Origin: Plesiomonas shigelloides
GTDB lineage: Bacteria > Pseudomonadota > Gammaproteobacteria > Enterobacterales > CAMTGL01
DNA length: 64,000 bases
Assembly: GCF_900087055.1 (NCBI RefSeq)
Contig: NZ_LT575468.1
Location: forward strand, 2,483,773-2,547,772
Reading direction: 5' to 3'
In this document: positions 43,016-45,254 of the stretch, one piece after another
How the letters are laid out: each line of letters starts with the position of its first letter
How positions within the stretch are numbered: the first letter of the stretch is position 1
The notes under the pieces: model-generated
Databases searched by the model: none
The model's input: only the letters and a program-made list of their open reading frames with translations
Told to the model about the DNA's origin: nothing
Made by a program: the position numbers and the translations under genes

Positions 43016-43069
43016 ATGCCTTTGTTTTTCATGGTTTTCTTTTTCAGCTTTTTTAGCCGCCCACACTAG
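43016..43069 (+). CDS. pheL: Phenylalanine leader peptide
   Basis: The 17-residue peptide MPLFFMVFFFSFFSRPH contains seven phenylalanines. When charged tRNA-Phe is scarce, ribosomes stall in this run and free the antiterminator so that pheA is transcribed. E. coli PheL is 15 residues with seven Phe. The stop codon TAG overlaps the antiterminator arm GGAGGC. Confidence 0.95.
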   Translation: MPLFFMVFFFSFFSRPH

Positions 43070-43142
43070 GAGGCCGCTTCGTTACGCGCAAAAGAAAACC
43101 AAGACGAACAAAGCAGCCTCCCACCTCGGGGGGCTTTTTTTT
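43069..43142 (+). promoter_or_regulatory. pheA attenuator
   Basis: The terminator hairpin AGCCTCCC (43115-43122)/GGGGGGCT (43128-43135) is followed by eight T residues. The alternative partner GGAGGC (43069-43074) can pair with GCCTCC (43116-43121), forming an antiterminator when the ribosome stalls in the Phe codons. Confidence 0.85.
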
Positions 43143-43173
43143 ACCCGTTTCACGCACAGCAAGGATGTACACC

Positions 43174-45207
43174 ATGAGTCAGGACTTAACCCAAATCCGC
43201 CAGCACATCAGCCAGTTGGACCGCTCGCTGCTCAAACTGCTGGCCGAGCGCCGCCAACTGGCCCTGGATGTGGCCCGCAGCAAGGAAAAGAGCCTGACTG
43301 CGCTGCGCGATACCGAACGCGAGCAAATTTTACTCAGCGCACTGATCCAGCAAGCCCATGAGCTACAGTTAGACCCGCATTATGTCACCCAGATTTACCA
43401 CACCATCATTGAAGATTCGGTGTTAACCCAGCAAGCCTACCTGCAACAACAGCTCAACCCTGCGCAAACCCAACAGCATAAAATCGCCTTTCTCGGCATG
43501 CGCGGCTCTTACTCCCATCTGGCGGCGCGTAAATACGCCGCGCGCCACACAGGCCGTTTGGTGGAGATCAGTTGCCGCACCTTTGATGAAATTCTCAAAC
43601 AAGTTGAACAAGGCCAAGCCGATTACGGGGTGCTGCCGATTGAGAACACCAGCTCCGGCTCGATTAATGACGTGTACGATCTGCTGCAGCACACCCAGCT
43701 GTCGATTGTTGGTGAGCTGACCCACCCGATTGAGCATTGTTTATTGGTCGCGCAAGAGACCAGTGCCGATCAAATTCACACCGTCTATAGCCACCCGCAA
43801 CCGCTGCAACAATGCAGTCAGTTCTTGGCAACGCTGGGTCAGGTGCAACTGGAGTTCTGTGAAAGCTCTTCGCACGCGATGCAAAAAGTGGCGCAATTGC
43901 AATCGCCGCACGTGGCGGCAATCAGCAATGCCGAAGGCGGTGAGTTATACGGCCTGCACGCTCTGCAAGGCAATATCGCCAATCAGCAGGAAAACATCAG
44001 CCGCTTTATTGTGGTCGCCCGCGAGCCGGTGGAGGTGGCGGCACAAGTGAGCGCCAAGACCACCTTAATCATGTCCACCGCCCAGCATGCGGGCTCACTG
44101 GTGGAGGCGCTGCTGATTTTGCGCGATCACGGCATCAACATGAGTAAGCTTGAGTCACGCCCGATCAACGGTCGCCCGTGGGAAGAGATGTTTTATCTGG
44201 ATGTGGAAGGCAATCTTAGCGAAGCGCGTATGCAATCGGCGCTGCGCCTGTTAAGCCGCCAGACCCGCTATGTCAAAGTGCTGGGCTGCTACCCATCAGA
44301 AACCGTGATCCCAACCGAGGTACCGCCAGAAGCGCATATTCCACACTCACGCGAAGCGATGCATCTGAGCGCGCAGCCTATCTTAGGACATGGTATTGAG
44401 CGCGGCGTGCGCGCCACTGCCACCGAGGATACGCACGATCTCGACGCTGCGCCGTGCCGTAATGTCCGCATTGGCGCTGTCACTCTCGGTGGTCAACAGC
44501 CGTTTCGGGTATTTGCCGGCCCGATGCATGGCGCAAGCCGTGAGGCGCTGCTGCAAAGCGCTGCCACCGTTAAACAATTTGGCGGCGCCCTGTTCAGCTT
44601 ACCGTTGACCTTGGCCGAAGAGGCACAGGCAAACAGTGGCGCGCAACAAGCTCTGACCGATTTGCTGCGCGATATTAGCCGTCGCTATCAGTTACCGTTG
44701 CTGCTGCCAGTGACCACCACCACGCACCTGACCACGCTGGCGGCTAAAGCCGATTTACTGTACATCCCGCCTCAGGCAATGCACAACACCGCGCTGCTAC
44801 ACGCTGCCGGAAAAACGCCATGTCCGGTGATGCTCAGTCGCGCGCCAGACATGGATAACGCCGCCTTGCTCGCGGCGGCCAATACCGTGCGCAGCCAAGG
44901 CAATCAGCAAGTGATTTTTTGTGAAACGGGGAGCCAGCGCACCACAGAAAGTGCACCGTGTTGGGATCTGGTCACCACCGCGCAGCTATGCCAACAGGCA
45001 GACATGCCGGTCATAGTAGCACCGAGCGTATTTGCCAGCGATGCCCGCTTATTACCCGCCTTGGTACAAGCCGCGCGCAGTGCTGGCGCGCACGGCGTAC
45101 TGCTGCCGCTGGCGTTGCCGGGAGATGCGTCAATCACCGCTGAAACCGACTCAACTGCCGCTCTGGATGCTCTGGCCTTCGGGGAACTGATGCAAACGCT
45201 GCGCTAA
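43174..45207 (+). CDS. pheA: PheA: chorismate mutase/prephenate dehydratase fused to a degenerate DAHP-synthase-like domain
   Basis: PheA converts chorismate to phenylpyruvate and is feedback-inhibited by Phe. ATG 43174 has AAGGA eight bases upstream; the protein is 677 residues against about 386 usual. In order: chorismate mutase (1-85), prephenate dehydratase (about 100-285; the TRF motif is N274-I-S276-R-F, Ser for Thr), and ACT domain with GSLVEAL and ESRP (about 290-375), ending KVLGCYPSE as PheA normally does. After a linker, residues 431-677 align with type I-beta DAHP synthases: VRIG, AGPMHGASREALLQSA, IPPQAMHNTALLHAAGK, QGNQQVIFCETG, MPVIVAPSV, AARSAGAHGVLLPL. The catalytic sites are lost: GPCS is GPMH (M451), DPSH is APSV (V619), and KPR and KRG are absent. 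This C-terminal half is probably a pseudoenzyme. It is read in the same frame without interruption. Confidence 0.93.
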   Translation: MSQDLTQIRQHISQLDRSLLKLLAERRQLALDVARSKEKSLTALRDTEREQILLSALIQQAHELQLDPHYVTQIYHTIIEDSVLTQQAYLQQQLNPAQTQQHKIAFLGMRGSYSHLAARKYAARHTGRLVEISCRTFDEILKQVEQGQADYGVLPIENTSSGSINDVYDLLQHTQLSIVGELTHPIEHCLLVAQETSADQIHTVYSHPQPLQQCSQFLATLGQVQLEFCESSSHAMQKVAQLQSPHVAAISNAEGGELYGLHALQGNIANQQENISRFIVVAREPVEVAAQVSAKTTLIMSTAQHAGSLVEALLILRDHGINMSKLESRPINGRPWEEMFYLDVEGNLSEARMQSALRLLSRQTRYVKVLGCYPSETVIPTEVPPEAHIPHSREAMHLSAQPILGHGIERGVRATATEDTHDLDAAPCRNVRIGAVTLGGQQPFRVFAGPMHGASREALLQSAATVKQFGGALFSLPLTLAEEAQANSGAQQALTDLLRDISRRYQLPLLLPVTTTTHLTTLAAKADLLYIPPQAMHNTALLHAAGKTPCPVMLSRAPDMDNAALLAAANTVRSQGNQQVIFCETGSQRTTESAPCWDLVTTAQLCQQADMPVIVAPSVFASDARLLPALVQAARSAGAHGVLLPLALPGDASITAETDSTAALDALAFGELMQTLR

Positions 45208-45225: not shown

Positions 45226-45254
45226 AAAAAAGCGGCGCACTGCGCCGCTTTTTT
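45226..45254. terminator. Bidirectional terminator between pheA and tyrA
   Basis: AAAAAAGCGGCGCA/TGCGCCGCTTTTTT lies 20 bp after pheA and faces tyrA from the other side. Confidence 0.92.

Follow-up and report, generated by a model that had tools for sequence, protein, structure and literature searches.

The pheA gene lies at positions 43174 to 45207 on the plus strand of the 64-kb stretch of DNA analysed here (the window). It is a single reading frame of 677 codons plus stop, with no internal stop, inside an open frame that spans 716 codons unbroken; the original prediction that the frame runs far past the usual end of PheA is thereby confirmed. Frame, Pfam and NCBIfam together describe the 677-residue product as CM-PDT-ACT followed by a pseudo-DAHP synthase. 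Pfam places a chorismate mutase domain (CM) at residues 8-87 (CM_2, 2e-18; positions 43195 to 43434), a prephenate dehydratase domain (PDT) at residues 104-284 (1e-60; 43483 to 44025), a weakly matched ACT domain at residues 298-357 (44065 to 44244) and DAHP_synth_1 at residues 435-644 (4e-16). Residues 395-424 (44356 to 44445) have a pLDDT below 50 in an AlphaFold2 model and form a linker predicted to be disordered, while profiles, motifs and model assign residues 431-677 (44464 to 45204) to a putatively dead type I-beta DAHP synthase (beta/alpha)8 barrel. All these features are on the plus strand.

The first three domains are like those of the E. coli P-protein (PheA, 386 aa). All eight mutase active-site residues (R9, R26, K37, D46, R49, E50, S82 and Q86) are the same, and the dehydratase motif N-I-S-R-F and the Phe-binding ACT motifs GSLV and ESRP are present, as in a P-protein. 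Among the key residues of CM, PDT and ACT only T278S and A310S differ from E. coli, and the three domains are presumed active. The serine for threonine that had been pointed out in the dehydratase motif is real (S276, corresponding to T278) but uninformative: serine occurs in 57 of 149 sampled sequences, some of them near-duplicates, and as a common variant it is no sign of an altered dehydratase.

The surroundings, bamD-raiA-pheL-pheA / tyrA-aroF, also follow the gene order of E. coli. Translation, together with the E. coli order raiA-pheL-pheA, points to a putative pheL-type leader peptide, MPLFFMVFFFSFFSRPH, at 43016 to 43069 on the plus strand, with 7 Phe among its 17 residues. Between leader and pheA the terminator scan finds a stem-loop with a T run, a candidate attenuator (43115 to 43144, plus strand); the number of terminator-like sites in the region is not above that in shuffled sequences, and the argument is one of position and context. 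Since a Phe-rich leader and a hairpin 5' of pheA resemble E. coli pheL, expression of the fused gene probably responds to the Phe supply through attenuation. On the other side, an inverted repeat rich in GC, flanked by A and T runs and assigned to neither strand, lies between the convergent pheA and tyrA (45232 to 45254). Read by eye it is likely their shared terminator; the terminator scan did not list it. No RNA families were found in the pheA region and no tRNA genes in the 64-kb window.

In the tail we recognise the barrel of a type I-beta DAHP synthase. Taken alone it matches PRK08673 in NCBIfam (E=6e-28) and 1vs1 in the PDB (E=2e-19). AlphaFold2, run on a family alignment that included intact relatives and so favoured the family fold, supports without proving a complete eight-stranded barrel (pLDDT 91.1, pTM 0.89), and a Foldseek search with this model puts DAHP synthases on top, 1VS1 being the best (TM 0.83, rmsd 2.4 A). 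Pfam, NCBIfam, PDB and Foldseek thus agree on residues 431-677 as the original prediction had described them, and the structural comparison proposed there came out in its favour. The fold is shared with the synthases of Aeropyrum pernix (1VS1), Pyrococcus furiosus (1ZCO) and Thermotoga maritima (1RZM) at a TM of 0.82-0.83; in the window protein CM-PDT-ACT stands in the place of the Thermotoga-type N-terminal regulatory domain.

In contrast to these enzymes, the window tail has lost three of four metal ligands and all PEP and E4P residues, using the type I-beta site assignment (metal C, H, E and D; PEP and E4P residues) from PMC6362186. The cysteine, histidine and glutamate ligands have become M451, V619 and P645; the aspartate, D659, remains, although its alignment is ambiguous. 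The PEP and E4P positions are now T479, A481, E482, Q534, S555 and T585, and none of the motifs RGG, KPRT, GAR, KRG and CERG is retained. Every motif change that had been listed proved correct in the alignment: GPC to GPM, replacement of the KPRTSPY loop, KRG to SRA, CERG to CETG, DPSH to APSV and VExH to LPLA. Only 2 of 14 catalytic columns are kept, versus 38 of 80 other conserved columns (Fisher p=0.02). The sequence therefore bears out the claim of a dead synthase, and we infer with considerable confidence that the barrel is catalytically inactive. Across the genome DAHP_synth_1 gives five matches. By length and score three of them are taken for I-alpha enzymes; the others are taken for a KDO8P synthase and the dead tail, so that the genome appears to be without an active I-beta enzyme. 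The neighbouring AroF is I-alpha and the tail I-beta, which rules out a local duplication; the tail was, as proposed, not copied from AroF.

We sampled 119 genomes of the window's order, from 27 families, and about 365 genomes of the class outside it. A long fused PheA is found in 26 of the 119, spread over 8 families, and among the matches listed for the roughly 365 other Gammaproteobacteria none extends into the tail. Further, a scan of species genomes finds the fused frame in Alginatibacterium, Aliagarivorans, Agarivorans, Paraferrimonas, Ferrimonas and many Shewanella, as well as CM-PDT-DAHPS frames outside the class, in Planctomycetota, Bacteroidota, Calditrichota, KSB1, Krumholzibacteria, Myxococcota and Virgisporangium; GNQQ was part of the search pattern, and its conservation in these loci is partly an effect of that choice. 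The survey of genera sharing the architecture, suggested earlier, thus reaches well beyond the order. In the Planctomycetota 6 of 119 sampled genomes have such a protein.

The fused tails of the order range from catalytically intact to unrecognisable. All catalytic motifs are retained in three proteins (L015, L033 and L034), the synthase is partly dead in L003 and the Agarivorans group, and it is wholly dead in Shewanella, Ferrimonas, the fused members of family f25 and others. The foreign three-domain proteins are mostly intact in their synthase motifs, with intact examples in Planctomycetota, Bacteroidota, Calditrichota, KSB1, Krumholzibacteria and Actinomycetota (Virgisporangium). The reversed domain order and the dead synthase, both noted from the window sequence, are true of this protein, but it had not been foreseen that the same order also occurs intact elsewhere. 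With enzymes of this layout apparently intact in other bacteria, the architecture would be inherited and the synthase would have died later, more than once.

Some proteins outside the order have losses of synthase residues of their own: marine Planctomycetota (L118, L120, L122 and L127), one MAG of the Myxococcota (L125) and, again among the Planctomycetota, L169 and L171. A 573-codon ORF of a Caldithrix sp. (L113) is a PDT-DAHPS fusion without CM, with intact synthase motifs. Type I-beta DAHP synthases were once called unusual in Gram-negative bacteria; standalone, motif-intact ones (L042-L051) occur in several families of the order.

The only other sampled member of the window's family, a congener, lacks the tail. 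Its PheA stops at codon 386, ending in PTQIA and the stop, and is followed by about 140 bases and then tyrA; its TyrA and AroF are 82-84% identical to those of the window. In this assembly (G010) two contigs, C202 and C55 (L053 and L052), overlap by about 25 bases inside pheA and jointly give a tail-less PheA of 385 aa. The tail would thus seem dispensable in the genus. An intact stop near codon 390 in a relative, named in the original prediction as a sign that an error had joined two genes, was therefore indeed found, and it is what could be said for a sequencing error or misassembly in the window. However, the frame is one open stretch of 716 codons, and the same fusion is found again in 25 further genomes from the order as well as in the named species, which rules such an artefact out for practical purposes. 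With the fused frame present in so many genera, the stop of the congener is a lineage-specific loss.

To place these proteins, we built CM-PDT trees rooted on other Gammaproteobacteria, in a quick and a careful version. In the careful tree the PheA of the order, fused and unfused and with E. coli included, falls in one clade with the foreign three-domain proteins, which is separated from the other Gammaproteobacteria by a branch of 1.47 with support of 100/100 (bootstrap/SH-aLRT). A tree in which the order's unfused PheA proteins are held monophyletic is rejected (lnL 152 worse, AU p 6e-7). The two species of the window's family group with family f9, which has genomes of about 2 Mb, and E. coli. 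The branch order at the base of the three-domain clade is open, and the direction of transfer is not fixed by this tree. One PheA of the order (L205, in G017 of family f17) is of the ordinary gammaproteobacterial type in the quick tree; it was omitted from the careful one.

A barrel tree, made by the quick method from the less decayed members and excluding the window's own tail as too divergent, places the intact tails of the order next to a Bacteroidetes fused tail (SH-aLRT 86), and standalone I-beta enzymes from the same genomes apart from the fused tails. This rules out fusion to a resident standalone I-beta gene. The window protein has the domain order of the three-domain family and the common descent of both halves, while the intact synthase residues are missing.

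Within the order, presence of the tail has changed at least nine times, and the intact or dead state at least six times among the fused proteins. Most simply, these proteins would go back to a single three-domain ancestor, probably acquired by horizontal transfer, whose synthase then died and was lost repeatedly. E. coli PheA, too, seems to stem from this ancient enzyme; it has no third domain and is on the tree a derived, shortened member. A separate event in a single lineage, joining PheA to a stray DAHP synthase gene already degenerate, would fit the reading that Song et al. 2005 (PMC1173090) gave of one Shewanella genome, but given that intact three-domain relatives occur both within the order and beyond it, that the trees agree and that losses were multiple, we consider it very improbable.

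Next, we estimated omega for tail and CM-PDT separately; these are pairwise values, some of them near saturation. The dead barrels of the relatives evolve faster than CM-PDT and are mostly under purifying selection, with omega mostly 0.02-0.2 versus 0.00-0.09. In Shewanella the values are 0.05-0.39 for the tail versus 0.00-0.09, in f25 0.12-0.14 versus 0.02-0.03, in marine Planctomycetes 0.06-0.07 versus 0.02-0.03 and in Agarivorans 0.02-0.045 versus 0.002-0.02, one near-identical Aliagarivorans pair aside. In lineages with an intact synthase the order is reversed: 0.11 for the tail versus 0.19 in f14, and 0.03-0.14 versus 0.24-0.34 in Virgisporangium. For the window, where the family sample is two genomes, the tail frame is unbroken and the omega below one is that of relatives. 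Its GC at codon position 2 is raised (0.52 versus 0.37), compatible with relaxed constraint.

The barrel could be a purely neutral, functionless relic that survives by chance in the window lineage. The tail-less congener, the many losses elsewhere, the faster evolution of dead tails and the raised GC2 would all fit this. However, omega is well below one in five dead lineages, and catalytic columns are lost preferentially. The tail is also full length in all 34 Shewanella-group sequences. Constraint there falls mainly on the barrel's second half, and a GNQQ and LDL core does not vary, GNQQ being inflated by the search pattern, as most of the loci were found with it and so presuppose a tail. Further, the frame is open where neutral decay predicts stops. 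Simulated neutrally to an equal loss of conserved residues, a tail acquires about 7 stops on average and none in 1 of 400 runs, a comparison that covers surviving lineages only; core hydrophobicity in this simulation test is 0.81 versus 0.71 (s.d. 0.06). We therefore regard neutral survival as unlikely, though it deserves to be kept in mind.

Another possibility is that the barrel has been re-used as a regulatory or sensing pseudoenzyme of the Phe branch, by binding a metabolite or by contact with AroF or TyrA, as the original prediction had suggested. It is kept and constrained in many lineages after catalysis was lost, and DAHP synthases are allosteric partners of chorismate mutase, as in the complex of the two enzymes in M. 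tuberculosis (PMC4281200). No new conserved pocket was found in the barrel, however, and its most constrained part, the second half around GNQQ, is already there in the intact fused enzymes. The Phe-binding ACT domain is intact by itself, and the congener does without the tail. Relaxed purifying selection in relatives and this clean loss give the suggestion no positive evidence, and we think such a role rather improbable.

The reading that we prefer, at a probability of about 0.7, is that the window encodes a P-protein with a relic third domain, derived from a three-domain ancestor and now structural or oligomerising. A CM-PDT-ACT-DAHPS(I-beta) protein would have entered or arisen at the base of the order. 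Its synthase part may have become redundant where I-alpha AroF/G/H or class II DAHP synthases supply the step. Several independent losses of metal ligands and substrate residues would have followed, the dead synthase being retained as a folded barrel or deleted. All dead-tail genomes that were checked have another DAHP synthase (I-alpha or class II). The same is true of every intact three-domain genome looked at, and there the fused synthase may therefore have been a Phe-controlled isozyme. In the window the barrel would be an appendage of the Phe-regulated P-protein under weak selection, most likely a dispensable structural or oligomerising pseudoenzyme domain. A wider claim is more tentative, and we give it somewhat less than an even chance: that the PheA of the whole order, E. 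coli included, stems from a three-domain DAHPS/CM/PDT enzyme common to distant phyla, and that the dead barrel was kept in many lineages as a pseudoenzyme that assembles or tunes PheA.

The dead PheA-DAHPS fusion itself is already known from Shewanella. Song et al. 2005 (PMC1173090) took it for a "bizarre" aroAI-beta pseudogene whose origin was unknown, and placed the event within the Shewanella lineage. The AroQ-PheA of Shewanella oneidensis described there has the same domain order and a dead barrel, and Shewanella tails belong to the series presented here. In contrast to a pseudogene acquired in Shewanella, we see an inherited third domain, intact elsewhere, constrained in relatives and common to other families. 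In the CM-DAHPS fusions or complexes of Listeria and Geobacillus (3NVT, 5J6F) an I-beta barrel is likewise associated with an AroQ chorismate mutase; however, that synthase is active and there is no PDT, while in the window protein PDT-ACT sits between CM and the dead barrel. In the open literature searched we found no description of an intact CM-PDT-DAHPS protein. As far as this literature shows, what is new is that the three-domain protein occurs intact in relatives, that enteric PheA groups among these, that the synthase decayed repeatedly, that there are signs of constraint and that the congener lacks the tail.

The PheA of E. coli, a textbook enzyme, is also a target of metabolic engineering. 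If the account given here is true, this two-domain protein is the shortened remnant of an enzyme that joined the first and the last steps of phenylalanine synthesis, and there is an unrecognised history behind how it is regulated and assembled. The inherited third domain would also explain the Shewanella oddity left open since 2005. With the synthase intact, partly dead, wholly dead or deleted at one and the same locus, these genes would offer a system for asking why dead enzymes persist.
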